The position numbers and the translations under genes were made by a program. A stretch of 64,000 nucleotides of DNA from Methanomassiliicoccus sp. (GTDB taxonomy: Archaea > Thermoplasmatota > Thermoplasmata > Methanomassiliicoccales > Methanomassiliicoccaceae): assembly GCA_033485155.1 (NCBI GenBank), contig JAWQJJ010000001.1, positions 434,001 through 498,000 of the forward strand, in the 5' to 3' direction. The notes under the pieces were generated by a model, which was not told where the DNA came from, did no database searches, and was given only the letters and a program-made list of their open reading frames with translations. Positions 17,811 through 40,485 of the stretch are shown here, piece by piece. The number at the start of each line of letters is the position of its first letter. Positions within the stretch are counted from its first letter, which is position 1.

Positions 17811-18681
17811 AGAAGTGATACAGAGAAATGTTTCAGGTGGACTGGTAGCTGATGGGGGGCAATCGACCGATATAACCGTGCGGGCGGACAAGATCTCTTT
17901 CGGATATACCAGCAAGGGAACGCTCAAGGGGATTGACATCAAGGCGGGTAGGGGCGAGTTCATCGGCCTAATGGGGCCTAATGGCTCAGGCAAGACCACT
18001 CTGATGAGGTGTTTGAACAGGCTGCTCTCGATCCAAGAAGGGGCGATCTACCTCGTCAACAAGGACGTCAAGAGAATGACCATGATGGACATAGCCAAGG
18101 TCTGCACGACCATTCCGGCTAATGTTCCGGACGACTTCTCCCTTTACGTCCGCGACTTCGTGGCCCTCGGTCGGACGCCCTACATAACTAAACTGTGGTG
18201 GGAAGGGGACGAGGATGAGAAGTTGGTCGATGAGGCGCTCAAGGAGTTCGGTATCGCCGACTATTCTCAGCGCCGATTGACCGAGCTGAGCAGCGGTGAA
18301 AAGGCAAGGGTCCTACTGGCAAAAGGCGTTGTACAGCAGCCCAAGGTCATGCTGGTCGATGAGCCTAGCGCTCACCTGGACCTGAAATACAAGCTCCAGG
18401 TGATGGAATCCCTCCAGGCGCTCGCTCGTACGGGGATCACGGTCATCACCGCGTCGCATGACATCAATCTTCTAACCAAGTACTGCGACAAGATCATCTT
18501 GCTCAGCAAGGGAGAGATCGTAGACTACGGGACCCCTCGAGAGGTCGTCACCGAGGACGTGATCAGGGATGTCTATGGCGTGGAGGTCTCCATCATAACG
18601 AAGAACGATGCGATCTTCATCCTGCCCCTTAAGCCAGCAGTTGATGGGGCCAAGGCTGCCCCCTTGGACATCGGGAAATGA
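17800..18681 (+). CDS. btuD: BtuD/FecE-family ABC ATPase
   Basis: Walker A GPNGSGKT is near residues 59-66, the signature is the variant LSSGEKARVLLAKGV, and Walker B is VMLVDEPSAHLDL with the H-loop ASHD. The start overlaps the permease gene by 11 bases. With the binding protein and permease it completes a cobamide/siderophore-type importer. The C-terminal 30 residues extend beyond the usual fold. Confidence 0.92.
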   Translation: MQCEEVIQRNVSGGLVADGGQSTDITVRADKISFGYTSKGTLKGIDIKAGRGEFIGLMGPNGSGKTTLMRCLNRLLSIQEGAIYLVNKDVKRMTMMDIAKVCTTIPANVPDDFSLYVRDFVALGRTPYITKLWWEGDEDEKLVDEALKEFGIADYSQRRLTELSSGEKARVLLAKGVVQQPKVMLVDEPSAHLDLKYKLQVMESLQALARTGITVITASHDINLLTKYCDKIILLSKGEIVDYGTPREVVTEDVIRDVYGVEVSIITKNDAIFILPLKPAVDGAKAAPLDIGK

Positions 18682-18737
18682 ACGGCACAGCGAATGCTAG
18701 GCAATATGTTCGCGTAAATTACAGGCGGTAATCGTAC

Positions 18738-19883
18738 ATGACAGTAGGAGTATGGCAGAAGGCTCTTGCCCAGGAGGTTCTGGAGCCAGAGAAGAGATTG
18801 GTATGCAGGTTCCTCAGCGGAGAGAGCGTTTTCCGGCACGGTCGTGCTCTGATAGTACAGTTGCCAGAAGGCAGGAACACTCTCATCACCTCATGGTTAA
18901 ATGGTGGCTATAGGGAGGACCTTAGGGCGGTTTTCAACAGTCAGACCATTGATGACGTTCATGGACATCTGAAGATCGAAGAGTACTCGCTCTATCTGAA
19001 GGTCATGGCCGAACGCCTTGGCTTGGATCCGGAGCGGACATCAGGCCTCTCCACCGCAGTCCATATGGATAATGCCTCCATAGTGACCAAGTCTTATCAA
19101 AGCACATCGGTGACGGCTATCGTGACCGGCGGGGTGGAGGGCAATGGCGGACGGGCCGGCGATCCCGCATCATACAACGAAGTAAGAGGCGTGGAACCGA
19201 TCGGGGGGACCATCGTGACCATGCTGCTTGTAAATGGCGATATGCCCAAGCACACCATGGCCAGGGCAATAATGACCGCGACCGAGGCCAAGAGCTGTGC
19301 GCTGCAGCAATTGATGGCTCCCAGTCGTTATTCCACGGGGATTGCCACTGGTTCGGGGACCGATCAGATCGCGATAATTTCCGATCGCGACAGCAGCAAT
19401 CGTCTTACTGATGCAGGAAAGCACTCCAAACTGGGTGAACTCATTGGAAAGTGCGTGATTGAGGCGACCACCGAGGCACTGAACAAGCATGGCGGGTTGA
19501 ACCCGGCGTCCCAGAGGGACGCCATGGTCCGGTTAAAGCGATACCGCATCAACGAGAACGATTGTTGGACGGCATCAGCTCAGTTCCCTGGTAACATCGG
19601 GGAAGCGGAGTTCCGGTCGTCACTTCGAAATCTATCAAGGGAGCCAGAGATGGTGGCGGCGATCGGTTCGATACTCCACATAGTCGACGAGGTCTCCTGG
19701 GGGCTCATCCCCGAGGAAGAGGGTAACCGCTTCGGCAACAACATGATCGCCAGACTGCCTCAGATCCTGCGAGCGGGTCCCGAGGGCGATAGCAAGCTTA
19801 TGATAAATGAGGCAAGCCCGATCCTCGCCAATCTCGTTTCAGGGCTAGCTCAGATGGTGAAGGAAGGGGGCGCGCGGGAATGA
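18738..19883 (+). CDS. cbiZ: CbiZ-like adenosylcobinamide amidohydrolase with a C-terminal extension
   Basis: Residues about 30-250 match the CbiZ fold: [54 protein letters not shown], and a Gly-rich [15 protein letters not shown]. CbiZ cleaves the aminopropanol amide of adenosylcobinamide or certain cobamides to give cobyric acid, so salvaged corrinoids can be remodelled. The extra 110 residues after about 270 (from [12 protein letters not shown]) are unassigned. It follows the importer in the same direction after 56 bases and overlaps the chelatase gene as ATGA. True substrate here may be a modified corrinoid. Confidence 0.75.
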
Positions 19884-20926
19884 GCGAGGAAAGGAGGCCG
19901 GTGTACCCGTTCACGGCCATCGTTGGACAGGACGAGATGAAGGAGGCCCTACTGCTGAATGTGATAAATCCATCGATAGGTGGGGTCCTAATAAAGGGGG
20001 AGAAGGGAACCGCGAAATCGACAGCGGTTCGAGCATTGGCCGATCTTCTCCCGGCTAGGAACGTGGTAGCCAATTGTCCGTGTGGCTGCAGATGGGGAGA
20101 TTGGGATCATGCCTGCCCCATATGCATAGGGCGTCAGGAAAGTGGCGAGGAGCTGAAGGAGGCAACGGTCCCCATGAGGGTCATCGAACTTCCGCTCAGC
20201 TCGACTGAGGACAGGGTCGCCGGAACACTGGACATCGAGCATGCCCTGAGGACAGGGAAGAAGAAGTTCGAACCGGGCGTATTGGCCAAAGCGAACGGCA
20301 ACATCCTCTACGTAGACGAGGTCAACCTGCTGGATGATCATCTGGTCGACCTGTTGCTGGACGCAGCGGCGATGGGGGTCAACTTTGTGGAAAGGGAGGG
20401 CGTCTCGTTCTCCCACCCAGCCCGCTTCACCCTGGTGGGGACGATGAACCCCGAGGAAGGGGACCTGAGGCCTCAGCTGTTGGATCGATTCGGACTGCAG
20501 GTGGAGGTCAAGGCTGAACAAGACATTACTCAGAGAATGGAAGTAGTCCGAAGGAGGCTCTCGTTCGAAAGGGACCCCGAAGGCTTCTGCGATGACTGTA
20601 AGGATGAGCAAGAAAGGCTGAGGAGCGAACTGATCAGCGCCCAGGGCCGGTTGTTGAGGCTCAAGGTAGAGGATGAGATCCTGGAGACGGCGGTCAGCAT
20701 CTCCCTTCACCTTGGAGTCGACGGCCACCGTGCCGACCTCACCCTGGTGAAGGCAGCCATGGCCTCGGCCGCACTGTGGGGCAAGTGCGCCGTGGGCAAG
20801 GAGGACGTGATAAAGGTTTCCAACCTGGTCCTGCCGCATCGGATGCGGAGGGGCCCGTTCCAGGATTCCAAGTTCGACAAGGGGGAATTCAGTAGTTGGC
20901 TGCAGGAACATATCCAATCGGCATGA
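19880..20926 (+). CDS. ChlI/BchI-like AAA+ chelatase ATPase
   Basis: Walker [10 protein letters not shown] lies at residues 40-48 and Walker [11 protein letters not shown] around 141-150, with the magnesium-chelatase pattern [17 protein letters not shown] at the start. A five-cysteine insert, Cys66/68/70/79/82, probably binds zinc or iron-sulfur. In class I chelatases the I subunit hexamer hydrolyses ATP and remodels the D and H subunits during metal insertion into a tetrapyrrole. It overlaps its neighbours on both sides as ATGA, next to a D-type subunit and on the same locus as a CobN/BchH-type gene, so a full three-part chelatase is encoded. Confidence 0.9.
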
Positions 20927-22779
20927 GGAAGACCTTTCCCCTGTCTGCGGTCGTGGGTCAGGAGAACGTCAAGAAGGCTCTGCTCTGCGCTCTCGCATCG
21001 GACAGCATCAACGGAGTCCTAATCACGGGACCGGTCGGAACGGCTAAAAGCACCCTGGCCAGGGCCCTCGATGATTTGATACCTGGGCGGAAGATCATCA
21101 ATCTCCCCCTGAACGCTACCGAAGAGCAGATCATCGGGGGGCTGGATCTGGAGGTAGCGCTCACCACCGGAAAGAAGAGGTCCTTGTCCTCAGTTCTTGA
21201 TCGTGCCGATGGTAACATCCTATACATCGATAGTATCAACCTGCTTCCCGAGCGCCTAATCCACACGATAATGGACGCATCGATCGAGCACAGGTCTCTC
21301 GTGGAAAGGGAGGGGATATCATCCCTCAACGAATGCCGTTTTCTCCTCGTAGGAACGATGGATCCGGAGGAAGGCGAGCTATCACCACATCTTTTGGATC
21401 GGTTCGATGTCTGTGTCAGCATTGCGGCCGCGAATGATGTCGAGCAAAGGGTGGAAATCCTTCGCCGCGGGCTCAGATACGATTCAAATCCCGCCGGTTT
21501 TCAGCAAGATTATGAGCAAAGTGAGGAGGAGCTGAGGGATATGGTCCTGGTCGCCAGGGAGAAGGCTCCCTATGTGCTGATCCCTCCCGGCCATTATGAT
21601 GCGATCGCCAGGCTATGTCAGGACCTGGGTGTGGAAGGTCATCGCGGGGATATCGCTCTAGCCCGGACCGTATCGGCGCTCGCTGCCCTCCATGGACATG
21701 ACCAGATAACCCTCGAAGACCTCAAAGAGGCCGTACCGCTTTGCCTTGAACATAGAAGGAGAGATCAATGCCCAGAGGAACAACCCCCGTTTCCTGAGAG
21801 CTCACCCCCTCCTTCGGCCGAGGACCAAAGGCAGGATGAGGGTGAGCGGCCTCCAGAAAGGCCGGACGAACCTTCGAACGATAAGGTCCCAGAAAGCATG
21901 CAGCCTCCCCCCTCGGATGGCAAGATGGAGGACAAGGTGTTCTCCGTGGGGAGGCCTTTCGCCGTCGTGGATTATATCGGCGAGGATAGGCGGCGGAAGG
22001 CTCTGACCTCAGCCCACGGTCGGAGGGACCGCATCGTCACATCGGACCGTTCAGGGAGATATACCTCTTTCCAGGTACCTCAGGGAAAGCTTCATGATGT
22101 GGCTTTCGACGCCAGTATCAGGGCCGCTGCACCTTACCAGCGGTCCAGGCATCGGAACGGTGTGGCCGTGGCACTGGAGTTATCCGACATCCGGGAGAAG
22201 GTAAGGGAAAGAAAGCGTGGCACAAGAATTCTTTTCCTGGTGGATGCCAGTGGATCGATGGGTGCACAGCAGCGCATGATCGCCGTCAAGGGAGCGATAC
22301 TCGCCCTGCTCAAGGATGCATATCAGAAGAGGGATGAGGTCGGAATGGTCTCCTTCCGCAAGGATGCCGCGGAGGTGACCCTTCCTATGACCAGGAGCGT
22401 ACTGATTGCATCAAGGAAGTTGGAAGAGATGCCTACGGGCGGCAGGACTCCGCTGGCCCAAGGCCTTGCCAAGGGCTGCGAGATGCTTCTGAAGGATGCA
22501 TCACCTCGTTCAGGATGCGATCCGGTCATGGTCATCCTCACCGATGGTCGAGCGAATGTTCCAATGAACGGGGGAAAGCCAGTACAAGAGGCGATCGACT
22601 TCGCGCATAAGGTTTCCGCCACGGGTATCCGATTCGTAGTGGTGGATACGGGGGCAGCCTTCCCCCGGCTGGACCTGGCGCTCAGATTGTGCATGGCATT
22701 AGAAGGGACGTATTTCCGGCTGGAAGAGCTGGACGCCAGCTATTTGGCATCCTCGGTGAGGGCGATTGTTGGCAGATGA
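20923..22779 (+). CDS. ChlD/BchD-like chelatase subunit: AAA+, acidic Pro-rich linker, VWA domain
   Basis: An AAA+ domain fills residues 1-280 with an intact Walker [10 protein letters not shown] (36-44), but the Walker B glutamate is replaced by Ser (LYIDSINLL), so hydrolysis is probably lost, as in other D subunits. A linker rich in Pro, Glu and Asp spans about 285-340. The VWA domain carries a complete MIDAS start DASGSMG near 442-448. The D subunit bridges the I-subunit ring and the large CobN/BchH subunit. ATG 20923 overlaps the previous stop as ATGA; a TTG nine codons upstream is less likely. Confidence 0.9.
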
Positions 22780-22801
22780 ATGAGCAATCGGAAGGTGCAA
22801 C

Positions 22802-24994
22802 ATGTTCCAAATCGCAATTTATGGGAAGGGAGGAATTGGAAAATCCACCGTCTCGGCCAACCTCTCGGTAGCACTGGCCAAGACTGGTCAGAGGGTACTG
22901 CAGATAGGGTGTGATCCCAAACATGATTCGACGAGACTGTTGTTGAGAGGACAGACTCCCACCACCGTTCTTGAGTACCTGAGGACTGTCCCGGAGGAAA
23001 AGCGTAGGTTGGATGACATCCTGCGTACTGGGTCCTTCGATATAAAATGCGTTGAGGCCGGAGGTCCCGAGCCAGGTGTTGGATGTGCCGGAAGAGGAAT
23101 TCTGACCACCTTCGAAGCACTGAAGAAATTGGGGCTAGAGGAGCAGAGCTTCGACATCAAGCTGTACGATGTACTGGGGGATGTGGTCTGCGGAGGTTTC
23201 GCCGTTCCCCTGCGGAAGGATTACGCGGATGCCGTATACATCGTTACCTCGGGCGAGTTCATGTCCCTCTATGCGGCGAACAATATCCTTAGAGGGATCA
23301 ATAACTTCGACGGAAACGCGAAGAGGGTGGCGGGGCTGATACTCAATGGTCGGGGAATCGAACGGGAAGATCAGACGGTGAGCGCTTATGCTGATGCGGT
23401 AGGGATACCCATCGTCGCCAGGATACCTCGAAGCGAGCTATTCATCCGATCGGAAAGGAAAGCCGTCACCCTTGTCGAACTATATCACGACTCTGCCCCG
23501 GCCAGGATACTCATGGACCTGGCCAATCATGTCGCCAAGGTATCAAAAGACCCATCGATGCTTAGAAAGGGGACCCCCCTGGACGATGAAGATATGAACG
23601 GCCTCGCCATGGGCCATTTCGAGAAGTTGGGAAGCAGAAGGTTCCTTCATTTTCATTCAGATGCTGAGACCGGCAACAAGCCCGTCGAGGGTGAAGGCCG
23701 CAAGAAGAGATGCACGGCCGATAGGGCCGTGATCCACACATGCGCGACGAACGGAGCGGTCAACTGTGCGTCCCAGGTCCTCGACGCGGCCATTATCATC
23801 CACGGCCCGAGGAGCTGTGGCCACCTCATGTCTGCGAGCATGGACTACTATGCGCTTTCCTCGAGCAAGCGAAACGGTACGAACCCGGAACGGACCATCG
23901 GCCGTAGAGTCGTCACAACAGACATGGACGACAGCATGTCCATCTTCGGAGGGGTCAGGAAGCTCGAGTCGGTGATTCGTGATAAGGTGAACGAGGGATG
24001 GAGGACCATATTCGTGGTCACGACCTGCGCCTCAGGCATCATAGGTGACAACGTCGCGCCCGTGGCAAGGCGCATAGAAGAGAGATGTCCAGACACGACT
24101 GTCAAGGTGGTCTATGCTGACGGCAACATCACCGGAGAGTTCGACCAGGGGTACCTGGACGCACTTGCCGAGGTCATCGATCTGGCCGATATGAATGTGC
24201 AGCCAGAGGCCGACATGGTAAATGTCGTTGGAGAGCGGGATTTCTTTATCTACAATCGAGACAGCAGCTACAAGAAGGCCGAGGAACTGCTGGGGCGGCT
24301 TGGTCTGAGGGTCAATTGCCGTTTGGTCAGCAAGACCACCACGGCTGCGATCAAGGACTTAAGGAAGGGTGCGCTGAACATCAAGGCCCAGAATGATCAG
24401 CTGTCAAATCGGATGGCAGAAAAAATCAGGGAGAAGTCGGGGATCAAGACGTTCGACCTTCCGCTCCCGGTCGGTTTGAGCGAAACGGAGAGATGGATGA
24501 TCGAGCTGGCAAAATATACCAGCTGCACAGAAGGTGTGGGGAAGGCCATCGATGAGCTGCGATCAGAATATCATTCGAGGCTATCGAGGGTCCGTCCGAA
24601 CCTGGAGGGGAAGAAGGTGGCCGTCTATCTTCGCTTCACCCAAGACGTCGAGTGGCTACTAGACCTCATTCAGGATGTGGGCGCCCGCATACAGATGATT
24701 GGTTTGGATAGAAGGTTATCCTCTGTCGCAGGTGAGCTTTCTTTAGGGAAGATGGAATCGGCGAAGATCCTACAGAACCTTTCGGTGACCGAGACTATGG
24801 CCATCCTCGAATCCGAAAGACCGGACCTTCTCCTGACCGACTGCCGGATGTCACAGACTTGCCCCTGCCACCATGATATCGTTCATCGACCGGATGTGGG
24901 CATCTCTTCATCCATCGAAATGGCCGAACGCTGGAGCCGCATCATCCGTCTGCCGGCGGTCGAAGAATGGAAAGTGGAAGTGAGAGCATGCTGA
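22802..24994 (+). CDS. NifH-NifD-like fusion: reductase fused to catalytic alpha subunit of a nitrogenase-like enzyme
   Basis: Residues 1-270 are a complete NifH/BchL-like reductase: GKGGIGKST at 8-16, DPKHDST at 38-44, and the two [4Fe-4S] ligands Cys95 ([12 protein letters not shown]) and Cys130 (DVVCGGFA), matching NifH Cys97 and Cys132. Residues 300-730 resemble NifD/BchN, with Cys314, Cys339 (HGPRSC) and Cys409 ([11 protein letters not shown]) at spacings 25 and 70, close to BchN (25 and 61) and NifD (26 and 66). There is no recognisable FeMo-cofactor Cys/His pair, so nitrogen fixation is not expected; reduction of a tetrapyrrole, as by DPOR, COR or CfbCD, is more likely. Reductase and catalytic subunits are normally separate proteins. 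Confidence 0.9.
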
Positions 24995-26259
24995 GCATCG
25001 ACGCCGATGGCCTTACTGGCAGTCTAATGGCGATCGAGAGCTTTCCCGATGCCCGTGCGATATTGAACGGCCCTGGAGGCTGCCGCAACTACCATTCCTT
25101 CCTTTCCGAGCTGCATTATCCCAGACCTATGGTGAGGGACGAGCCAACCTTCCAGGAGCAATATTTCTTCGGCCAGTCTAGGATACCTTGCACTTACCTC
25201 GACGAGGAGGACTATATTCGTGGTGCGATAGATAAGGTGGAGGATCTTATCGGAGTAGTGAGGGACAAAGGAGATACTTTGTCCGTCATCATCAACTCCC
25301 CCGGTGCTGCCCTCATCGGGGATGATATCGGCGGAGCGATCGTGCGCAACGGGCTCTCGGGTAAGATGCTATCCCTGGAGGACGTGCTGGTGTCGACGCC
25401 AGTTTCCAGCAGTTATGATGCCACCGTACGCTCCATCATAGCCTCTTTGGATATTTCGCCGGCGGATAGAGTAAGCCAAACGGTCAATCTGCTGGGGATG
25501 TCCATCCTGAACAAAGGGTGGAGGGACGACGTCATGGAGCTGCGTCGGATCCTGACTCAGATGGGAGTAAAGATCCTTTCGACGCCCGGGGCAGGGAGCA
25601 CAGTGTCAAAGATCACCGACTCGGTGAAAGCGTCCTGCAACATCGTCGTAAGCCCTGAACTCGGATTGAGGACCGCTGAGCTCTACAAGGAGAGGTATGG
25701 CATCCCGTATATCATACCCTCTGATGGCGCTCCCGTGGGCTTCAAGGCGGTCAGGAACTGGATCGAGCAGGTTGCCAAGGCTACGGGGTCGGACCCGATC
25801 GGCGCGACTCTGTCATTATCTTCCCGCCGGGTGGAGGCATGCCGCCTTCTGACAAGGTTCCAATTCCATACTACTCTTCCAAAGGGCGCGACCTTCGCCA
25901 TCAAGGCGGACAGCTCGATGGCACTGCCATTGACCGAGTTCCTCATGAACTACCTCGGAATGATCCCCGTAGCGGTGCGAGTAAACCCAGGCGAGTATCT
26001 GCCTATGGCAGAACGTCTACGATCCCTACTCGAGGAGAGTGGGTTCGGGGGCGCGTGGGACAGAGACATTACCCATGATCGCGCGGACATCGTCCTGGCT
26101 GACGGGCATTCGGTCAGGCTCTTAAAAAGAATGGGAGCTTGCCAGGGAGGAGTAGACCTAGGGCTTCCGTCATTGGATAGATTCGACTTCATCCCCCGGC
26201 CGCTGATGGGGCCCCAGGGAACGATGCATATTCTGGACGAGATAATCAACAGCTTGTGA
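24988..26259 (+). CDS. NifK/BchB-like beta subunit of a nitrogenase-like reductase
   Basis: The start [13 protein letters not shown] places Cys32 where NifK has Cys95 and BchB has its Asp36 cluster ligand. The downstream motif that normally reads T-C-x4-IGDD is here [10 protein letters not shown], lacking the Cys equivalent to NifK Cys153. The predicted cluster would thus be held by three Cys of the fused alpha domain and Cys32 of this subunit, a DPOR/CfbD-like single [4Fe-4S] arrangement. I chose ATG 24988 (7-base overlap with the fusion gene) over ATG 24967. At 423 residues it is short for the family. It ends the plus-strand run. Confidence 0.87.
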
Positions 26260-28778: not shown

Positions 28779-31700
28779 TCACCTTCCTTCGTTCGCCTCT
28801 TCCAGTACCGATTCCGCGTCCAGGTAGATCTGCTTCAGCTTTTCCTTGATCTCCTCGCTGGCCTCCCAGAGCCCCCGCTCGATCGCTTCCAGCAATCGGC
28901 TGGCCATCTCCCTGAGCGCGTACGGATTGCTCTCTTCGATCCACTTCCGGTTCTCCTCGTCGAACAGGAAGTGCTCCGTCAACGACTCGTACATCCACGG
29001 TTCGATGATATCCGAGGTGGCGTCCCAGCCCAGGACGTACTCGGTCAGCTTCGACAGTTCTTGTGCGCCTCGGAACCCGTGCTGCTTGAGGCCCTCGAGC
29101 CATTTGGGGTTGAGCACCCGGCTGCGGAAGACGAACTTGCTCTCCTCCTCCAGCGTCCTGGTCTTGAGACGCTGTGGATCGGAACTGTCGCCCATCACGG
29201 ACAGCGGTTTCTTCCCTCCGAACACCCTGACCGTGGCGTTCATTCCACCCAGGATAGTATAATCGTCATCGATATCCAGTAGGTCGAACTCCCTGTCCTC
29301 GTGGTTCTTGACGGTGACGTCGAGGGCACCCATCCTCTGTTTGAACGAATCAGGCAACTTCTCCCCCTTCCACCCCCGCCCATAGGCGTGACATCCCCAG
29401 GTGACGTAGGTATCGGCCAGATCTTTGGTGGTGGACCACTTCGAGGACTCGATGAGGACATCTACTCCTGCCCCGTACTCGCCAGGAGGATCTCCAAAGA
29501 TACGCACCAGTGCCTTTGATTGCGCGTCCTTGGGAGATAACCCTTCGCGGATCGATTGCTGAATGTCCTCCCTTAGGTGCTTGACGATGAAGTTCTCATC
29601 CTCTGATTCGTCCAGCGAGGCAATGGTCTCCACCCCCTCGTCGATCATGTCGACCAGATTAGGGAAAGTATCGCGGAACAGGCCGCTGATCCTGAGGGTC
29701 ACGTCGATCCTCGGCCTGCCGAGATCCTTCAATTGGATAACTTCCAAGCCGATGACCCGGCTCCCCGTGGCGCTCCATTTCGGCCGCAGGCCCATTAGCC
29801 ATAAGATATAGGCGATGTCGTCCCCGCCCGTCTTCATCGTGTCGGTCGCCCACACCACCATGCCTACGTTCATGGGATAGCACCCCATCTCCTTGACGTG
29901 GCGCTCGACCATCTGGTCGGCCATCTTTTTACCGATCTCCCAGGACGCCGGGCTGGGTATGGAATCTGGATCGATGGAGTAGAAGTTACGGCCGGTAGGC
30001 AACAGGTGTGCGTTCCCACGGGTGGGGCATCCCGATGGACCAGGGGGTACGTATCCGCCATCCAGTCCGTGCAGGAGATATCGGACCTCGTTCGAGGTAG
30101 CCATCACATTCGGGTAGACCTCATCGCACAGGAACGTCACGACCTCCGCGAGATCGGCATTGTTGCCGGGTGTAATCTCGCGCACAATCTCCTGGCATTC
30201 TGCCTTTGTAAAACCGACCCCCATCATCCTGTCGATAATATCATGGCATTGGCCGTCCACCTCGTCGAGGAGACTTCCGTTCACCTTGCCTAGCGTGGGG
30301 TGCATTTGTGACGGGTTATCCTGCAATTCCCTTATCTCCAGCCCCCTCGTCTCGGCGACCGCCGCTCTCAGCGATGGCACCGAACCGTTCTGGAGACGGG
30401 TAAGGCAGTACAGCATCTCTTCGAGCCTCTTGTCCTCGGGCGGCCGTCCCATGATGTGGAGACCGTCCTTGATCAGGGCATCCTTCATCTCCAGAAGATA
30501 ATCGTAGAGCTTGTCGATCTTATTGTCAAAGTCCTCAGGGGCAGCGTCCATGGGAAGGCCGATCTCTTCGAACATGGACAGTCTCTTCACAATAGCATAG
30601 ATGTTCTGATTATGGACCGCCAGCTTTTCCATCTGGCCGGTATTTGACGCTCGCAGGTAAGCTTGGACATTGGACTCTAGGTCCATCAGGTCATCATAGC
30701 TCCCCGCCCGGGTCATTGCCGGGATCAGATGGTCCAGGATGACTGCCCCACTTCTTCTTTTAGCCTGGATGCCCTCCCCTGGGTTCTCCATGATATATGG
30801 ATTGAGATTGGGCATGCTTCCCAGCACAACATCGGGGTAGCATTTCGCGGACAGCCCGACGCTCTTGCCCGGGAGCCATTCCAGCGTCCCATGACAGCCC
30901 ATGTGGATGACAGCTTGAGCTCCGAACACGTCCTTCAACCATCGATAGTATGCCAGGTACTGATGGGGCATCACCACATCGGTGCTGTGGTAGAGGGTCT
31001 CCGCCTGGGCGTGATACCCTCGATTCGGTTGCAGTCCAATGAAGACATTGCCGTTTTTTACTCCCGGGATCATCAGCCGGCCATCGATGTTATACAGAAT
31101 TCCTGGAGGTTCTCCCCAGTTACGGCAGATGGCATCCTGAGCTTCAGTCGGGATGTTGTCGAACCAATCACGATACCGGTCTTTTCCCACCGAATCGGCA
31201 GCCCTTTCCTTGATCTCCTGGGGAGAAAGCCACTCGGTATCGTTCGTGACCCCTGCCATGATCTCATCCAGCAGCTCCTTACCATCTGATGGTACATGAT
31301 CGAGATAGTAGCCTGCCTTTTCCATCTCCTTCAGGATATCAGATATGCTCTGGAAGGTGTCTAGGCCTGCAGCGCCGCCCACTCGGTCGTTCTTAGGGGG
31401 GTACATATACAGAAGTATGGCGACCTTCCTCCGGTCCACAGCGGTGCGCCTTAGCTCCGCCCATGACTTGGCCAATGTAGCGACCCTTTCGATGCGATCG
31501 GCCATGGGTATGGCCACGAGGCGGCCGTCCCTTGTCCGCTCGTTGCATGAGATGGGCACGGTAATTATCTGGCCATCATATTCGGGCCAGACCACGTTCA
31601 CTGATATTTCCATGGCGCTTAGGCCGTTGATATCGCCCTCATATGCTTCTCGGTCCTTCCAGACCGACATGGTCTGAAGGATCGGTACATCAAGGTCCTG

Positions 31701-32489
31701 GAAGAAATTGTGCACCTCCATCCTGCTGCTTCCATCGCCGGGGTTGGATAGGGATATCTGCGAGAAGCCCATGTTCATTATGACGGAGTCGACGCGGGGG
31801 CGGTCACCATCCATGAAATATTTCTCAAATACGCTTCGGATTCCGATCGAGCCTGTTGTACTGCTCGGAGAGGTTACGAAGAACACCGGTATGACATTGG
31901 CGCCTTTCTTTTCCAGTGTCCATATGATCTCATTGATGGCTTCAAGGTTGCCGGAAAGCCAGGTGGTCTGATGGAACATCACGCCGATTGTCGGCCGGCC
32001 CGGTTTTAAGGTTGATAAATATTCGATCGGATCAATCATCGTGCCATGGTCAGGATGGTATATTCCTTCGGTACGGGGCCTTGATGGCTCCGGCACCTCG
32101 ATGGAGGTCATACCGTCGATCGTCTTGCAAGCCCATGCCAGAATGCCCATATCATTCTCCTTCCCTCCGAGCTCGACGAAGGCTCTAATGAGGTGATAGT
32201 CGGCATCTGAGTAGGGGAAGAGATCACGATATTGGGAGGCGACATCATTCTCGTTGCAAGCAACGAGGCAACATACCTTGTTAGCAAGGACGGTTTCTTT
32301 CAAACGATCGAATTTTTTGAAATAGGACGGGTCTCCATGAATGCGGACGATCAGCAGGTCCGCCTTTTTTACAATTTTTTGGAAAGAAAGAAACTCCTTT
32401 TCCTTGGAATCCAAATCCTCGGAGTCAACACAGACCAACTGGACCTGACCGGCTTTAGGTAAAAAATCCTCCAATGCCGATAGCATCAC
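28779..32489 (-). CDS. cobN: CobN/BchH-type large subunit of an ATP-dependent chelatase
   Basis: The 1236-residue product shows the CobN/magnesium-chelatase H family throughout: VIPVFFVTSPSS near residue 210, MYPPKNDRVGGAAGLD, the HMGCHGTLEWLPGKSVGLS block, CYPMNVGMVVWATDTMKTGGDD, and the C-terminal WLEGLKQHGFRGAQELSK and DYTILGGMNATVR blocks. This subunit binds the tetrapyrrole and holds the active site; the ChlI/ChlD pair at 19880-22779 would drive it. The annotated GTG start leaves out an in-frame stretch LVVNLSAGTKDSAV that looks like the true first strand, but a stop precedes it (see findings). It could handle cobalt, nickel, magnesium or another metal. Confidence 0.92.
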   Translation of the reverse strand: MMLSALEDFLPKAGQVQLVCVDSEDLDSKEKEFLSFQKIVKKADLLIVRIHGDPSYFKKFDRLKETVLANKVCCLVACNENDVASQYRDLFPYSDADYHLIRAFVELGGKENDMGILAWACKTIDGMTSIEVPEPSRPRTEGIYHPDHGTMIDPIEYLSTLKPGRPTIGVMFHQTTWLSGNLEAINEIIWTLEKKGANVIPVFFVTSPSSTTGSIGIRSVFEKYFMDGDRPRVDSVIMNMGFSQISLSNPGDGSSRMEVHNFFQDLDVPILQTMSVWKDREAYEGDINGLSAMEISVNVVWPEYDGQIITVPISCNERTRDGRLVAIPMADRIERVATLAKSWAELRRTAVDRRKVAILLYMYPPKNDRVGGAAGLDTFQSISDILKEMEKAGYYLDHVPSDGKELLDEIMAGVTNDTEWLSPQEIKERAADSVGKDRYRDWFDNIPTEAQDAICRNWGEPPGILYNIDGRLMIPGVKNGNVFIGLQPNRGYHAQAETLYHSTDVVMPHQYLAYYRWLKDVFGAQAVIHMGCHGTLEWLPGKSVGLSAKCYPDVVLGSMPNLNPYIMENPGEGIQAKRRSGAVILDHLIPAMTRAGSYDDLMDLESNVQAYLRASNTGQMEKLAVHNQNIYAIVKRLSMFEEIGLPMDAAPEDFDNKIDKLYDYLLEMKDALIKDGLHIMGRPPEDKRLEEMLYCLTRLQNGSVPSLRAAVAETRGLEIRELQDNPSQMHPTLGKVNGSLLDEVDGQCHDIIDRMMGVGFTKAECQEIVREITPGNNADLAEVVTFLCDEVYPNVMATSNEVRYLLHGLDGGYVPPGPSGCPTRGNAHLLPTGRNFYSIDPDSIPSPASWEIGKKMADQMVERHVKEMGCYPMNVGMVVWATDTMKTGGDDIAYILWLMGLRPKWSATGSRVIGLEVIQLKDLGRPRIDVTLRISGLFRDTFPNLVDMIDEGVETIASLDESEDENFIVKHLREDIQQSIREGLSPKDAQSKALVRIFGDPPGEYGAGVDVLIESSKWSTTKDLADTYVTWGCHAYGRGWKGEKLPDSFKQRMGALDVTVKNHEDREFDLLDIDDDYTILGGMNATVRVFGGKKPLSVMGDSSDPQRLKTRTLEEESKFVFRSRVLNPKWLEGLKQHGFRGAQELSKLTEYVLGWDATSDIIEPWMYESLTEHFLFDEENRKWIEESNPYALREMASRLLEAIERGLWEASEEIKEKLKQIYLDAESVLEEANEGR

Positions 32490-32759: not shown

Positions 32760-33743
32760 ATGTCAAGCAACGGGCGATCAGAGGTGGTGGTGGAGGATCT
32801 CATTAAGGAGTATCAGCCGGCTCTAGGGAACGCGAGGAAGGCCGACCCAGTACGGGCTGTGAATGGCATCAGCTTTAGGATCGAGCGGGGCCAGATCTAC
32901 GGTTTGCTGGGACCGAACGGCGCCGGGAAAACTACCACCATTAAGGTCATCTCGACCCTCCTAACCCCGACATCCGGGAATGTATCTCTCTTCGGGATGG
33001 ACGTTGTCAACGACTACCGCGAGATCAGGGAAAGGATAAACCTGGTGTCCGGAGGCGAGAGAGGACTCTACTACAGGGTATCGGGGAGGCAGAACCTCCG
33101 GTTCTTCGCCGATCTTTACCGCCTGCCTCGGGCAACGAGGGACCTCAGGGTGGATGAGCTGCTGAATCGGGTGGGCCTAGAGAGATCAGCCGACAAGAAG
33201 GTCGAGGAATACTCGCGGGGGATGAAACAAAGGTTGCACATCGCCCGCGGATTGATCAACGATCCCGATGTGCTCCTGCTCGATGAGCCGACGATCGGAC
33301 TGGATCCGGAGATCGCTCATGAGGTCCGCCTGCTTGTCGATGAGCTTAGGCGAGAAGGCAAAACAATCCTTCTGACGACCCACTACATGCGGGAGGCGGA
33401 GGAGCTTTGCGACAGCATTGGTATAATCTCCAAGGGAAGGATGGTGGGCAAAGGCACGGTATCGGAGCTCAAGGACCTCATCAAGGATGCGACCGTCATA
33501 GAGATAGTCGCGCGTGACATTCCCTCCCGGTCGGTCGAGAGGGTCAGGCAGATGGATGGAATAATCGACGTCTCGGTTCGCGCCGATCAGTCCCAATGCA
33601 TCATGAGATTGCGGGCGGACCATGGGGATGTGAACATTCCGGCCATCATCTCCAGGCTGGACGGATGTCACATCAAAAGGATAAGCAACGAGGAGCCGAC
33701 CCTGGAAGATGCTTACTTGGGCCTGGTGAGACAAGTTGATTAA
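32760..33743 (+). CDS. ABC-2 transporter ATPase with two downstream permeases
   Basis: Walker A GPNGAGKT is at residues 51-58, the signature is YSRGMKQRLHIARGL and Walker B is VLLLDEPTIGLDPE. It starts at ATG 32760 after GAGGG. It is transcribed divergently from the CobN-like gene, sharing a promoter region with the regulon dyads. Its stop overlaps the first permease by 8 bases. Its neighbours suggest export of a tetrapyrrole-pathway compound, but antibiotic or peptide export is equally possible. Confidence 0.92.
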   Translation: MSSNGRSEVVVEDLIKEYQPALGNARKADPVRAVNGISFRIERGQIYGLLGPNGAGKTTTIKVISTLLTPTSGNVSLFGMDVVNDYREIRERINLVSGGERGLYYRVSGRQNLRFFADLYRLPRATRDLRVDELLNRVGLERSADKKVEEYSRGMKQRLHIARGLINDPDVLLLDEPTIGLDPEIAHEVRLLVDELRREGKTILLTTHYMREAEELCDSIGIISKGRMVGKGTVSELKDLIKDATVIEIVARDIPSRSVERVRQMDGIIDVSVRADQSQCIMRLRADHGDVNIPAIISRLDGCHIKRISNEEPTLEDAYLGLVRQVD

Positions 33744-34524
33744 CCCCCGGGCCATCAGCCAGGGCTTCGTCCAACAGGCCCTGACGTTCCTTGCCGATCC
33801 CCAGTGGATCATTCCCAGCATCGTCGCTCCCTTCACCTTTACCATGGTCACGTTGATGATCTACCCCGAGAAGAGCGGGCTGGTGGTGCTATATGCCATC
33901 CTGGGAGGGGGCATTCTCGGCATGTGGGGCAATATGATCCGGTCCTCGGGATTCAGCATTACGTACGACCGGGTGATAGGGACCCTGGAACCCCTCATGA
34001 TGACCCCCACCCCGATCATAAACATAGTGGCAGGGCGAGCGCTCTGGAACACGTTCATCGGCCTGTTGAATGCCGGCCTCATCTTCATCCTGGCCATATT
34101 GGCCTTCAATGTTGAGGTCAGCCTGTCGGACCCCGTGTTATTCTTTTTATCGCTGGTGATCACCTTGTTGTCGCTGGGAGCTATCGGGGTGCTCCTGTCT
34201 GCGCTCTTCGTTCTCACCCGAGCCTCTGGTACCCTCGTCCAGATAATTGAACTCCCGGTGTTCGTGATCAGTGGGGCCCTCATACCGATATCGGAACTCC
34301 CAGAATGGACATGGCCGCTATCGATGATCCTCCCCCCGACCTGGAGCGTTGACGCCCTACAGGTTTCCAGCGGTCTGATGAGCGGAAATCCGGTTGGCTT
34401 GGGAGTGGTTGGAGACCTCATCGTGGCATCGATCCTCGGGGCGTGCTACATGCTCGTGGCGATCGCTCTGTTCAGCCGCCTAGATAGCAAGGCCCGGGCA
34501 AGTGGGCAGTTGGGGATGTGGTGA
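33736..34524 (+). CDS. ABC-2 permease, first of a pair
   Basis: The 262-residue protein has about six hydrophobic segments and the motif VIGTLEPLMMTPTPIINIVAGRALW characteristic of ABC-2 permeases, then PVFVISGALIPISELPEWTW before the last helices. It starts at TTG 33736, overlapping the ATPase gene. It probably forms a heterodimer with the permease encoded three bases downstream. Confidence 0.88.
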   Translation: MINPRAISQGFVQQALTFLADPQWIIPSIVAPFTFTMVTLMIYPEKSGLVVLYAILGGGILGMWGNMIRSSGFSITYDRVIGTLEPLMMTPTPIINIVAGRALWNTFIGLLNAGLIFILAILAFNVEVSLSDPVLFFLSLVITLLSLGAIGVLLSALFVLTRASGTLVQIIELPVFVISGALIPISELPEWTWPLSMILPPTWSVDALQVSSGLMSGNPVGLGVVGDLIVASILGACYMLVAIALFSRLDSKARASGQLGMW

Positions 34525-34527
34525 ACT

Positions 34528-35328
34528 ATGGGCATCGGGCACTATCTGCCGGTAATGAGGGGCGCATCGATGGTATCGATGCGCTCATACTTTACCACCG
34601 TCCCGAAATGGCTATGGGCGGTCCAATTGCTGGTGATGAGCATAAGTCAGATGGCCTTCTTCGTCTACGTTACTCAGGTCTCGGGGACAGCGAAGATGAC
34701 AGTGGACCAGGTCGCCCTGGGCAATGCTCTTCAAACGGTATCATATTCCGCCGTGTTCAGCATCTGCAGCATACCCGGCGAGGAGAAGCATGCCGGGACC
34801 CTGCCGCTCATAATGATGACCCCGAGCAGGATATTCACCGTGGTCCTGGGAGAATCCCTCTTCCAAATAGTGACTGGAATAATAACCGTGGCCTTTTCAC
34901 TCCTCATCGCCGCGACGTTCTTTGGCGTGAGCTTCGCCCAGGTAAACCTCTTGGCCGTTTGTGCCGTGATTTTGGTCACATGCTTCGCGATGGCCGGTTT
35001 CGGCCTGATGCTGGGCAGCTTTGGGATCTATCTGCGGTCATCCACGCTGTTGGCCAGCCTCTTCATGTACGTGGGTCTGGTCTTCTGCGGAGTGAATTTT
35101 CCAATAGATCAATTGCCCAGCTTCCTCCAGCCGATATCATATGTCCTTCCGTTATCATACGGGGTCAGGTCTCTATCACTGGCGGTCAGCGGATCGAATG
35201 TACTGTCCATCCTCCCCAGCCTTATCGCAATGGTCGTCATAGGATTCATTATGATATTGATCGGAATGGCGATGTTCTACGTCTTCGAAAAGATGGCGAG
35301 AAGCAAAGGCACGACCGAGATATTCTGA
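34528..35328 (+). CDS. ABC-2 permease, second of a pair
   Basis: The 266-residue membrane protein shows EEKHAGTLPLIMMTPSRIFTVV, which parallels the motif of the previous permease, and about six hydrophobic segments. The two permeases likely share the single ATPase at 32760. It ends the plus-strand unit before a convergent importer operon. Confidence 0.88.
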   Translation: MGIGHYLPVMRGASMVSMRSYFTTVPKWLWAVQLLVMSISQMAFFVYVTQVSGTAKMTVDQVALGNALQTVSYSAVFSICSIPGEEKHAGTLPLIMMTPSRIFTVVLGESLFQIVTGIITVAFSLLIAATFFGVSFAQVNLLAVCAVILVTCFAMAGFGLMLGSFGIYLRSSTLLASLFMYVGLVFCGVNFPIDQLPSFLQPISYVLPLSYGVRSLSLAVSGSNVLSILPSLIAMVVIGFIMILIGMAMFYVFEKMARSKGTTEIF

Positions 35329-35482: not shown

Positions 35483-36844
35483 TCAGGAGTACACCTGGAA
35501 GAACGCATTGACGTCCACCGAATCAGGGTTGGCCACCGAGGTGAAGTGCTTCAGGTAGTAGTGGAACAAGGTGCCGTAGTCATCCACACCGTTGTCCAGG
35601 TTCGGATACAAGGTATCCTGATAGAACACCACCTCGATCACGTACATCGGTCCGTTGCCTGCCTCCCTCGCCATCCCCAGGATGTGCGGGTTGTAGGCGG
35701 TCCCGTTGTACCGGTTGTCGTCGTTCACCATGTACGAACGCAGCTTGCTCACCGCGCTCTCGTTCCCACCGTACCGGAAGCCGGCGTGGTTGTTGTCCAC
35801 GTAGTAGGCCGCGTTGAGGCCGATGATGTGCTCTACCGACACGGTCTGGTACATGTCGGTCAGTCCTGGATCGCGCTGACCGATGCTGTCCGCCCCGGCG
35901 GTCTCGGCGTGGATGTTGTTGATGTTGTTCTTGCCGGTGATGCTGATGTCCGAGGTCTTGTCGTTGGGGGAGGTCCTCGACATGAGGAAGGTCTGCTTCT
36001 CGCTGGCGGCCAGGGTCGCCGATGCCGCGGTCACCTTGGAGATGATACCATCATGCCAGGCGAGGTACGAGTAAGCACGGTCCATATCTCCCTGGATAAG
36101 GTAGGAGATCATCAGCAGAGTACGGTCCATGTTCTCGTTGGGCTGGTTCACTCCCGCCTGGTCGGCACAGGTAAGGAACATGACGTCGATGCCCTGGGGG
36201 TTTAGCTTCGATTCCAGAACATCATCCACGCCGCTGTTGAAGTAGCCGATGATGTAGACATCGATGCCAGCCTTGATAATGGCCTCGTAGTCCGGGTCGT
36301 TGGGCTCTCCGAAGCTCGGTATGCTCGCATAGGCCGGGTTGAAAGCCACATAGTTCTTGGTGATGAAATTGTCGGCGATGGCGATCTTGCTCGTGGCGTT
36401 GGCCACCTCGACCGCCTGCGCTCCGCTGCAGTACGCGGTGGCGATCTTGTTCACTGGCCAGTGGACGACGGCGATCTTGTTGTAGTTGTTGATGTAGAAG
36501 ACCTCCATGTCGTCGCCGTTGATGATCTTCTTGAGATAACCGACATCGTTCTGGTCGACGATCCCATCGCAGTTGGCATCGGCCAGGGTCGTCGAGGAGT
36601 TCTTGCCGTCGATGATCCCCTGGAGATAGGTCACATCCGCGTCATTGATGTAATCATCCTCGTTCGCGTTCCCGTACACCCAAAGGCGCGATGACGCGCT
36701 GGGGTACTCGCTCTCGATCAAGTGCTTGCCCTGAACGGCCCCGCTGTTGGAGGAGCTCTTGGCATTCTTCATGAGGAACATTGCCCCCACTCCTGCCACG
36801 ATGATCACCGCCACCAGGGCTATTGCTATCACTTTCTTGCTCAT
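35483..36844 (-). CDS. btuF: BtuF-like binding protein with an N-terminal dockerin-like domain
   Basis: A signal anchor lies at residues 4-25. Residues 55-112 contain two dockerin/F-hand calcium loops: 59-70 (N-x-N-x-D-D-x-I-N-x-x-D) and 89-100 (D-x-N-x-D-G-x-V-D-x-N-D), each followed by a helix of the VTYLQGII or VGYLKKII type. The rest is a type III binding-protein fold of the cobalamin/siderophore group. The start overlaps the ATPase stop as ATGA. The dockerin pair could attach the protein to a surface cohesin or simply stabilise it with calcium. It binds the substrate of the permease and ATPase encoded upstream. Confidence 0.85.
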   Translation of the reverse strand: MSKKVIAIALVAVIIVAGVGAMFLMKNAKSSSNSGAVQGKHLIESEYPSASSRLWVYGNANEDDYINDADVTYLQGIIDGKNSSTTLADANCDGIVDQNDVGYLKKIINGDDMEVFYINNYNKIAVVHWPVNKIATAYCSGAQAVEVANATSKIAIADNFITKNYVAFNPAYASIPSFGEPNDPDYEAIIKAGIDVYIIGYFNSGVDDVLESKLNPQGIDVMFLTCADQAGVNQPNENMDRTLLMISYLIQGDMDRAYSYLAWHDGIISKVTAASATLAASEKQTFLMSRTSPNDKTSDISITGKNNINNIHAETAGADSIGQRDPGLTDMYQTVSVEHIIGLNAAYYVDNNHAGFRYGGNESAVSKLRSYMVNDDNRYNGTAYNPHILGMAREAGNGPMYVIEVVFYQDTLYPNLDNGVDDYGTLFHYYLKHFTSVANPDSVDVNAFFQVYS

Positions 36845-37656
36845 TCGTATCCCTCTAGTCTTTCCTTCGATTGATATTGATCTTCCAGCGTCGATAACAG
36901 AATGATGTGGGGGCGTCTCTCGACCTCTATCAGTTGAGACCTGACGCCGTACACGTCCATGATGCTCCTCTCAGTCATGACCTCCGCCGCGGTCCCATCG
37001 GAATGGATCTTCCCCTCGGACATCATGAGGATCCTGTCGGCATACCGCGCGGTGATGTTCAGGTCATGGCACACCATCAGGATGGTGATCCCTCTCTCCC
37101 GCGTTAGGCGCCGGAGAAGCTCCATCACCTCCATCTGATGCCTGACGTCCAGGTTTGAGGTCGGCTCGTCCAGTATCAGGAGGTCCGGCTCCTGGGCCAG
37201 GCCCCGGGCGATCATGACCCTCTGATGCTGCCCTGCGCTCAGCTCGTTGAAATCACGCATCATGTATTCCTCCAGACCCATGGTCCTGATGGTCTCCTCG
37301 ACCACCTCGAGGTCGTGATCGGAGGTCGTCCAACCCGCCCGGGGATGACGGCCCATTAGCACTGTGTCCATGACGCTCATGGGAAAGGTGTCCCCGGACG
37401 AGTTCGGAACATAGCCGATGCGGACCGCCAGTTCCCTGAGGGTCATGTCGTTGATGTCCGTGCCATCGAGGGTCACCCTGCCACTGAGGGGGCGGAGGAG
37501 GCGGTTAACGCACCGGGCCAGTGTCGTCTTGCCGACCCCGTTGGGGCCGATGATGCAGGTCAGATTGGGCTCGCTCAGCTCGAAACTGACGCCCTTGAGG
37601 ACCTCGGTCGCACCATAGCTGAATGATATGTTCTCGACCTTCAGGTCCACGCTCAC
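36841..37656 (-). CDS. btuD: BtuD/FecE-family ABC ATPase
   Basis: Walker A GPNGVGKT is at residues 37-44, the signature is LSAGQHQRVMIARGL and Walker B is LLILDEPTSNLD. A GTG at 37656 overlaps the permease stop as GTGA and gives the usual start a few residues before the first strand (VDLKVENISFSYG); the frame is open further into the permease gene. It is the middle gene of the minus-strand btuC-btuD-btuF operon. Confidence 0.92.
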   Translation of the reverse strand: MSVDLKVENISFSYGATEVLKGVSFELSEPNLTCIIGPNGVGKTTLARCVNRLLRPLSGRVTLDGTDINDMTLRELAVRIGYVPNSSGDTFPMSVMDTVLMGRHPRAGWTTSDHDLEVVEETIRTMGLEEYMMRDFNELSAGQHQRVMIARGLAQEPDLLILDEPTSNLDVRHQMEVMELLRRLTRERGITILMVCHDLNITARYADRILMMSEGKIHSDGTAAEVMTERSIMDVYGVRSQLIEVERRPHIILLSTLEDQYQSKERLEGYE

Positions 37657-38744
37657 CACGCCTCCTTCCGATTCTTCAGGATAAGGTACATGAAAAGCGG
37701 GCCGCCGATGCACGCGGTGATCACCCCGACCGGCAGCATCGTGGGCGAAACGACAGTGCGGGCGACGAGATCGGAGACTATCAGCATGGCGGACCCGAAG
37801 ATGGCCGATCCAGGAATGAGGAACTTGTTGTCCGAGCCCATTACTATGCGGACGATGTGCGGGCAAACCAGCCCGACGAAGCCGATGATGCCGGTGAAGC
37901 TCACGATCGACGCGGCCATGAGGGTGATGACCAGGAGACAGATCAGCCTCCTGCGCTCCACGTTCACCCCCAGGGACTTGGCGCTCTCGTCTCCGATGCT
38001 CATGATATTGAGCTGGTTCGCGAGATATTGCAGATAGACGGAACCGAGGATCACCACCACGGTCATGATCGGCAGGTTCTCCCAGCTCACCTTGCTCAGC
38101 GAGCCGATGGTCCAGGTATAGACGGCGGCCAGATCATCAGGGGTGGCCAGCAACATCAGGAGCGAGGTGATGGCGCTGAAGATGTACATCAGCGATATGC
38201 CGCAGAGGATCATCATTGTGGGTGATGCTCTTCTCACCTGGCTCAGGATGAGGACGACCATCGCCGGGATAATGGCGAAGATGAAGGCGTTGGTGACGAT
38301 GCCCGCTCCTGCGAACAGCTCGAATCCCAGGATGATGGCGATCGCCGCTCCCAATCCGGCGCCTGAGGATATGCCCATTGTGTAAGGGTCGGCCAGAGGG
38401 TTCTTCATCATGCTCTGCATGGCCGCTCCGCAGGCCGCTAGGCCAAAGCCGCATACGATAGCTCCGGCGATGCGGGGAAGACGCAGCTGGAGAACGATGT
38501 AGGCTGCCTGGGGATCGACCTGCCCCCACCCCGTGAATTGCTTCCAGATGATGGCGTAGACATCACCAACCGCAATCGGGTACGAGCCGATGGTGGCCGA
38601 GTACCCTCCCGTGAGGATGACCACGAACACGCAGAACAGCATGAAGGCCAGCTTCTTCACCACGCTCTTGCGGTACGCCACCTGGAGAGCGGACCTCTCC
38701 TTCGTTCGAGCGTTCTCCAAGGATTCCATGGTAAGCGACCTCAA
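37653..38744 (-). CDS. btuC: FecCD/BtuC-family ABC permease
   Basis: The 363-residue protein has about ten transmembrane segments and motifs RLPRIAGAIVCGFGLAACG, MQSMMKNPLADPYTMGISSGAG and GFVGLVCPHIVRIVMG. It belongs to the cobamide/siderophore importer family and is the first gene of the second such operon in the window, 3.4 kb from the CobN-associated exporter. A 7-5-7 dyad overlaps its predicted promoter. Confidence 0.93.
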   Translation of the reverse strand: MRSLTMESLENARTKERSALQVAYRKSVVKKLAFMLFCVFVVILTGGYSATIGSYPIAVGDVYAIIWKQFTGWGQVDPQAAYIVLQLRLPRIAGAIVCGFGLAACGAAMQSMMKNPLADPYTMGISSGAGLGAAIAIILGFELFAGAGIVTNAFIFAIIPAMVVLILSQVRRASPTMMILCGISLMYIFSAITSLLMLLATPDDLAAVYTWTIGSLSKVSWENLPIMTVVVILGSVYLQYLANQLNIMSIGDESAKSLGVNVERRRLICLLVITLMAASIVSFTGIIGFVGLVCPHIVRIVMGSDNKFLIPGSAIFGSAMLIVSDLVARTVVSPTMLPVGVITACIGGPLFMYLILKNRKEAW

Positions 38745-38891: not shown

Positions 38892-39740
38892 TCACTTCTC
38901 GGCGACGACGATGAAGGAGCGAGGCAGCGAGATCGCCTCCCCGTCGATCGATTGCTGGAACGGGTCCATGCCCTGCATGTCGACGAGGACGAGCCTCGCC
39001 CCCAGCTCCACCAGGGCGCTCATGTCCCACTGGGGCCGTCTCTCCCTGCTCAGGGGGAGATCCCTGGCGATTTCCTTGATGATGTTGGTATCCACCCCGT
39101 CCAGGTAGCGGTGGTCGCCTCCCTTCCTCATGCCTTCCTCCAGGGCGTAAGCCTGGTCGTACAGGTGCAGGTAGTGGTTGCCGTCGAAGACTATCATGCG
39201 CCCGCCGGGACGAAGGACCCTCAGCCATTCGCGGTACGCTTGACGGGGCTTCTCCAGGTCCCACACCAGGTTCCGGGAGAGGATCAGGTCAAAGGTGTTG
39301 TCGGGGAAGGCCAAATCCTGAGCGTCCATGCGGCGAAAGGTCGCAGTGACCCCGAACTCCTGGCAATTCTTCCTCGCCATATCCAGCATGGCCTCGGTGT
39401 AGTCGACGGCGGTAATCCGGTGCCCCTCCCGCCCCATGAGGATGGGGAAGAACCCCGGCCCGGTGCCGATGTCGAGCACCTCGAGGGCCCCCTCGGAGGT
39501 CGCATGCCTCTTGATGACGCCCATCCACCGGCCCCAATCCTCCGACCCCAGGTCATCCAGGATCGAGCGGGAGTAGCCATCGGCCCTCATTGTCCAGTAG
39601 TCCCTGATGGCCTCGAGATGCCTCAGCTCGCCCTCTTCTTGGCAGGGGATCGAGCCCGGGAGGTAGGAACGATCAGGCTCCCGGGCTCCGGTTCGATCCA
39701 TCTGTTCGGAGCTGTTGCGAGGATCAAGCGGACCTGACAC
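38892..39740 (-). CDS. SAM-dependent methyltransferase, second of an adjacent pair
   Basis: Motif I VLDIGTGPGFF, the ITAVDYTEAMLDMARK segment, and RRMDAQDLAFPDNTFDLILSRN mark a class I methyltransferase. GTG 39740 overlaps the preceding gene by 17 bases; ATG 39701 is an alternative start that gives a shorter tail. The 282-residue length and relatedness to the neighbouring methyltransferase suggest an old tandem duplication. Substrate unknown; location beside the importer operon hints at tetrapyrrole or lipid methylation. Confidence 0.85.
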   Translation of the reverse strand: MSGPLDPRNSSEQMDRTGAREPDRSYLPGSIPCQEEGELRHLEAIRDYWTMRADGYSRSILDDLGSEDWGRWMGVIKRHATSEGALEVLDIGTGPGFFPILMGREGHRITAVDYTEAMLDMARKNCQEFGVTATFRRMDAQDLAFPDNTFDLILSRNLVWDLEKPRQAYREWLRVLRPGGRMIVFDGNHYLHLYDQAYALEEGMRKGGDHRYLDGVDTNIIKEIARDLPLSRERRPQWDMSALVELGARLVLVDMQGMDPFQQSIDGEAISLPRSFIVVAEK

Positions 39741-40485
39741 CGGGCTTCACCCCCATGACCATGAAGTGGTCGTTGGTGCTCCCGTACGCAAGGTGCCTCA
39801 CGCCATGGAGGACCCGGTCCTGGATATTATGGATGACCCGGACGTCCCCGAAGCCGGCCGCGCGCATCATGTCCACGTCCGTCGATGGCCTGGAGGCCCG
39901 CGTCGACCAAAGCTCGTCCATGGCCTTCTCTGCTTCCACCCCCCGCCCCCTCGTCCTCAGATACTTGGGCGGGGAGTCCAGGAACACCCCCATGTTCGAA
40001 AGCCGGACCCTCCACCAGGTGCTGCGGGGATCGGACCTCCAGTTGCCGTCAACGTAGACGACCGTGCTTCCTGGTCGCACCACGCGGTACCATTCCCTTA
40101 ACGCCCGCTCGGGATGGGGCAGGGTCCAGAGGACATAGTCGCTGATAAGCGCGTCGAAGGCGTTGTCATCGAAGGGGAGGGCCTCCGCATCCCCATGACG
40201 GATGTCGATGCTCAGCCCGTTGTCCGCGGCGTTCTTCCTGGCGGCCTCCAGCATTTTCTCGGAGAAGTCGAGGGAGGTGACACGGTGGCCCATGTCCGCC
40301 AGCTGCATGGACACGATCCCCGGGCCACAGCCGACGTCGAGGACGCTCAGCCCCCGGGGGCCGATGACTTCGGCGAAGAGACCCTGCCATGCTCTCCTCT
40401 CGCGATGTATGGAGAATCCCTTGGTGACGAACTCGTTGTAGCTCCGGCTATCGGCGTCCCAATGTTCCCTGATTCTCTCGTTCAT
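39724..40485 (-). CDS. SAM-dependent methyltransferase, first of an adjacent pair
   Basis: Motif I is VLDVGCGPGIVS, followed by VTSLDFSEKMLEAARKNA and RHGDAEALPFDDNAFDALISDYVLWTLPHP. The 253-residue product is similar in layout to the downstream gene, including the YVLWTLP and NLVWDLE post-motif segments. A TATA-like TTTTAAAT flanked by an 8-bp dyad lies just upstream. Confidence 0.87.
   Translation of the reverse strand: MNERIREHWDADSRSYNEFVTKGFSIHRERRAWQGLFAEVIGPRGLSVLDVGCGPGIVSMQLADMGHRVTSLDFSEKMLEAARKNAADNGLSIDIRHGDAEALPFDDNAFDALISDYVLWTLPHPERALREWYRVVRPGSTVVYVDGNWRSDPRSTWWRVRLSNMGVFLDSPPKYLRTRGRGVEAEKAMDELWSTRASRPSTDVDMMRAAGFGDVRVIHNIQDRVLHGVRHLAYGSTNDHFMVMGVKPGVRSA

Follow-up and report, generated by a model that had tools for sequence, protein, structure and literature searches.

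In archaea, annotated dockerins are commonly taken to indicate cellulosome-like complexes, and classical dockerins contact cohesin through positions 10 and 11 of their loops. The closest described systems are found in ANME archaea, for which a comparative genomics study of 2022 reported ABC importers, TroA-type systems among them, whose binding proteins carry a dockerin (PMC9012536). The protein encoded at 35483-36844 (-) of the window, i.e. the complete 64-kb stretch analysed from the 2.8 Mb assembly of a Methanomassiliicoccus sp., resembles these in bearing its dockerin on the substrate-binding component of an importer, and the ANME TroA-type cases may belong to the same family. However, the ANME genomes additionally encode scaffoldin-like proteins with cohesins, and their dockerins were interpreted as docking parts, whereas no cohesin is recognisable in the Methanomassiliicoccus genome; furthermore, the present domain resembles an integral N-terminal part of the protein, and tandem arrays occur in its family. 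Since such ANME proteins have been reported, the dockerin-binding-protein fusion as such is already known. The integral character, an asparagine signature, the cohesin-free spread and the tandem arrays with CobN appear not to be described in the literature searched, where, for dockerin together with Methanomassiliicoccales, none of the papers retrieved named one or the other in its title or abstract.

Cellulosomal type I dockerins (CelS dockerin, PDB 1DAQ/2MTE) share with the present domain the duplicated F-hand calcium loops and are similar in size, and 1DAQ is matched by a 34-sequence profile of the family at 2.8e-7. In contrast to them, the domain possesses Asn at position 1 of loop 1, lacks a conserved 10/11 contact pair, and is located N-terminally, almost without linker to the functional domain and without a cohesin. 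The class III binding proteins YiuA (6B2X, 9IF3), TM0189 (2ETV), HI1472 (3PSA) and BtuF (5YSC) have the same fold (Foldseek E 4e-14 to 5e-10) and the same importer genes (FecCD permease, BtuD-type ATPase), but their profile matches begin only after the dockerin, and sequence identity is only 11-17%. CobN-like proteins, a further point of comparison, are linked to metal-porphyrin salvage, and the CobN-like BtuS of Bacteroides fragilis and Methanosarcina (PMC10846266) is likewise a CobN relative outside aerobic cobalamin synthesis; here the link consists of gene neighbourhood only.

The binding protein is 453 aa long with an ATG start, as delimited by its ORF, family alignments and an AlphaFold model. 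It begins with a hydrophobic helix (residues 3-25 in both sequence and model, 36770-36838 (-)), a probable membrane anchor or signal sequence, and the classic binding proteins of the same genome have an N-terminus of like kind. The dockerin-like domain follows at residues 54-111 (36512-36685 (-)), recognised by matches to solved dockerins and with AlphaFold helices at 68-78 and 98-109. It contains calcium (F-hand) loop 1 (residues 59-70, 36635-36670 (-), NANEDDYINDAD) and loop 2 (residues 89-100, 36545-36580 (-), DANCDGIVDQND), both supported by family conservation and both with the ligand positions 1, 3, 5, 9 and 12 of the duplicated F-hand loops of type I dockerins. The loops lie ahead of the binding-protein fold, exactly where the initial annotation had put them. 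Residues 112-453 (35486-36511 (-)) form the class III (TroA-like) binding domain, according to PF01497, Foldseek and the profile match.

Taken singly, the protein stays below the Pfam cut-offs of both Dockerin_1 (E=0.49, 11.1 bits; cut-off 22.9) and Peripla_BP_2 (PF01497, E=1.7e-4, 21.5 bits; cut-off 27.5). The isolated dockerin segment matches the solved dockerins 5LXV and 1DAQ at E ~2e-4 (177,635 sequences), the family profile retrieves YiuA at 1.3e-18 in addition to 1DAQ, and another fusion, laid out in the same way and located elsewhere in the genome beside another BtuD-like gene, reaches 29.5 bits and thus exceeds the Pfam dockerin cut-off. Together with the invariant loop residues described below, the matches of the segment and of the profile rule out a chance resemblance to dockerins. 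The AlphaFold model (pLDDT 90.5, pTM 0.88; pLDDT 95-99 in the dockerin) displays the two-lobe class III (Peripla_BP_2/TroA-like) fold with a long helix at 254-275; its Foldseek matches reach E 4e-14, the best being YiuA, TM0189, FepB and HI1472, with BtuF lower in the list. The dockerin and YiuA-class matches bear out what the initial annotation had described, a dockerin-like calcium domain fused to a binding protein of the cobalamin/siderophore class.

Of 120 genomes sampled from the order, 73 contain homologs of this protein, with as many as ~15 matches in a single genome. The scan beyond the order reached Methanothrix (Methanosaeta), Methanotrichaceae, one Methanocellaceae genome and one Methanosarcinales genome, where the members likewise possess the module, immediately behind the signal sequence. 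The survey for the same fusion in other archaeal binding proteins that the initial annotation had suggested is therefore answered positively, both within the order and for Methanothrix and Methanocella relatives. Head-to-tail arrays comprise ~15 genes in a row on contig C78 of genome G126 and eight or more on contig C88 of G122 (L147), and contig C23 of G126 holds approximately ten members around two CobN genes (the G126 loci are L143-L146). The family profile counts 71 members in G126 and 74 in G122, some of them without dockerin, with 12 and 17 FecCD permease matches, respectively; among the matches listed, the dockerin is present in at least 40 (G126) and at least 31 (G122). In several orders, methanogens thus encode up to dozens of members of a single binding-protein family with a calcium module, and CobN chelatases often lie next to them; this suggests that these methane producers, which matter for the environment, possess a so far unstudied system for scavenging metals or tetrapyrroles. 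In the source genome, the five remaining PF01497 matches, distributed over four proteins, have no dockerin, and the possibility that every binding protein of the lineage carries one was rejected. TAG is the pyrrolysine codon in Methanomassiliicoccales; in a genome of the same genus (G010), a dockerin-binding-protein copy (L089:17384-18640) is split by an in-frame TAG, and may be read through or be a pseudogene.

In an alignment of 39 homologs, only M1, L54 and seven residues in the loops (G58, N59, D70, D89, N91, D93 and D100) never vary, and D63 of loop 1 is kept in 38, so that calcium-loop residues are nearly the only invariant ones across the whole protein. Position 1 of loop 1 is invariably Asn in the family, in place of the Asp of textbook dockerins. 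Conservation is higher in the dockerin than in the binding domain (mean pairwise differences of 0.55 and 0.72, respectively), and the evolutionary distances of the two are correlated (Mantel r 0.71, 0 of 2000 permutations); dockerin and binding domain have a common history. The loop positions usually contacting cohesin (D68/A69 and Q98/N99) are occupied by their commonest residue in only 23-49% of the family, and the conserved Ser/Thr-type contact pair at 10/11 in both halves of type I dockerins is missing. The flexible linker to a separate module, another feature of type I dockerins, seems to be missing as well: the junction between loop 2 and the binding domain measures 19 residues in 28 of the 39 homologs, 22 in nine and 20 in two, and in the AlphaFold model the last dockerin helix ends at 109 and the first strand of the binding domain starts at 113. 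The distance from M1 to N59 varies from 33 to 69 residues. A second AlphaFold model, of a member ~21-25% identical, also has a pTM of 0.88, and for a free dockerin the pTM is estimated at ~0.77 by arithmetic on domain lengths (~75 dockerin residues), which is not a measured error matrix. Fused tandem proteins of 921 to 1419 aa (L103:6249-10505, L105:5127-9044 and L108:5102-7864) contain two or three binding domains with two or three dockerins, each dockerin preceding its own binding domain.

The dockerin is probably an integral, calcium-stabilised N-terminal subdomain of a methanogen family of metal-chelate or tetrapyrrole binding proteins, without docking to cohesin here. The protein would be the surface binding component of a BtuCD/FecCD-type importer, with the dockerin-like domain as its permanent N-terminal part. 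Because the ligand residues are invariant, both loops are predicted to bind calcium, and two calcium ions would fold and stiffen the subdomain. The pTM of the two models and the near-fixed spacing suggest that the dockerin is rigidly seated on the binding domain. The stretch between membrane anchor and dockerin may act as a flexible tether, placed on the membrane side of the dockerin because the length from M1 to loop 1 varies and the junction is near-fixed. The complete unit would capture a metal chelate or tetrapyrrole (corrinoid, heme-like or siderophore-like), a ligand class suggested by fold and gene neighbours, and pass it to the BtuCD-like pair. In the source organism, which has no recognisable cohesin, docking to a cohesin would play no part.

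The initial annotation had instead suggested that the binding protein could be held in a surface complex; in this model a true dockerin would tie it to a scaffold-borne cohesin. By sequence the domain is indeed a dockerin, and cohesins occur in 13 to 18 of the 120 genomes of the order. Yet neither the Pfam model PF00963 nor a profile built on 13 cohesins of the order has a match in the source genome, and both find none in the genus, so that a cohesin overlooked by the Pfam model is rejected as an explanation; neither a cohesin partner nor a scaffoldin with several cohesins was found in the genome. Eight more distant genomes holding the fusion, whose completeness is not stated, yielded no cohesin either. 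Dockerins found with cohesins in the order belong to a different sequence class: all 11 distinct cases begin loop 1 with GD, and the loop is often followed by DSL, whereas GN stands at the start of loop 1 in 49 of 49 dockerin-binding-protein fusions (Fisher P 1e-13, from 13 rows that include two duplicates and from related sequences). In the family with most members, the copy number of the fusion is higher in cohesin-bearing than in other genomes (median 14 versus 3), an effect that persists after correction for genome size (t 5.7) in genomes that are interrelated and not independent. This association counts only weakly in favour of docking, and for that subgroup only, because the genomes are related and twelve genomes of the same family possess at least six copies of the fusion but no cohesin. 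Attachment to a cohesin scaffold is therefore very improbable for this protein, although a docking role may exist in the cohesin-bearing rumen relatives. For the source genome, the lack of cohesins in genome and genus, the variable contact positions and a conservation concentrated in the calcium fold do not support the proposed cohesin-based surface complex, and the initial annotation itself had named a missing cohesin with conservation of the loops as a calcium fold as speaking against it. As the dockerin fold is strictly kept without detectable cohesins, archaeal dockerin annotations can mislead when taken as signs of a cellulosome-like complex.

A partner other than cohesin is harder to dismiss, but still rather unlikely: the dockerin could be the docking interface to an envelope or sheath protein, to a shared permease or to neighbouring binding proteins, so that many binding proteins with differing pockets would use a single socket. 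Archaeal dockerins are cited as strong cohesin binders (PMC9012536), and Methanothrix-type genomes contain 24-74 members of the family but 2-17 FecCD permease matches, so that most members cannot own a private permease. The dockerin is, moreover, conserved above its binding domain, as would also be expected of a shared docking interface. On the other hand, the conserved residues are calcium ligands and form no exposed patch, loop positions 10/11 are variable, the junction is near-fixed, and the fused proteins carry one dockerin per binding domain, which would be needless for a single dock. An extended version, for which we see a small chance, is that in several methanogen orders large, tandem-encoded sets of binding proteins are displayed that share the calcium module as a common plug for a non-cohesin socket in envelope or sheath. 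They would form a layer on the cell surface that gathers metal chelates or tetrapyrroles and supplies them to a small number of permeases and CobN-type chelatases. The invariant ligands of both loops and the dockerin's tight connection to the first binding-domain strand would also fit a sensor or gate, in which calcium occupancy alters cleft opening or delivery to the permease. This function is highly improbable; calcium is generally plentiful outside the cell, so that a structural role is favoured.

Several proteins of rumen-type Methanomethylophilaceae relatives (L041, L043, L047, L049 and L063) combine cohesin and classical-type dockerin domains, and possibly represent a genuine cohesin-dockerin system in methanogens.

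The binding-protein gene belongs to an importer operon. The BtuD-like ATPase gene (36841-37659 (-); ABC_tran E=3.8e-30, NCBIfam models of heme/corrinoid/siderophore ATPases) overlaps with its stop the start of the binding-protein gene as ATGA; its mechanical ORF extends to 37866, with homology beginning near 37650. Upstream of it lies the BtuC-like (FecCD) permease gene of the same importer (37653-38744 (-); FecCD E=6.7e-93), and further upstream lie two SAM-dependent methyltransferase genes (38892-40485 (-); Methyltransf_11). The association with FecCD permease and ATPase is as expected for a class III binding protein, and in orthologs the gene order BtuC-BtuD-binding protein is conserved, often with the same two methyltransferase genes nearby. 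Neither a cobalamin riboswitch nor any other RNA was found near the operon, a single tRNA being the only RNA detected in the window.

A CobN-like metal chelatase subunit is encoded ~3 kb from the binding-protein gene (28779-32489 (-); CobN-Mg_chel 1274 bits, TIGR02257 over cut-off), and CobN lies no more than 10 kb away from a member with dockerin in 15 of 29 cases, versus 1.8 expected under a rough coverage model. The best structural neighbours bind iron-catecholate (YiuA) or molybdate (HI1472), not cobalamin. For corrinoid uptake, the window offers a better candidate: a tandem binding protein that lacks a dockerin and is accompanied by BtuCD and CbiZ. Because of these structural neighbours, the proximity of CobN and the better corrinoid candidate, the favoured ligand of the 35483-36844 (-) protein would be a metal chelate or tetrapyrrole other than plain cobalamin.

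Between the CobN and binding-protein genes, on the opposite strand, lies an ABC-2 exporter (32760-35328 (+)) of one ATPase and two permeases; an ATPase gene similar to that of this exporter is found near some relatives. The corrinoid/chelatase region of the window (14585-26259 (+)) comprises genes for the double Peripla_BP_2 protein without dockerin, BtuC, BtuD and CbiZ, as well as ChlI-like and ChlD-like genes. After the chelatase genes it contains a 730-aa ORF that by eye resembles a fusion of NifH and a NifD-type protein, and a second ORF, of 430 aa, that looks NifD-like.
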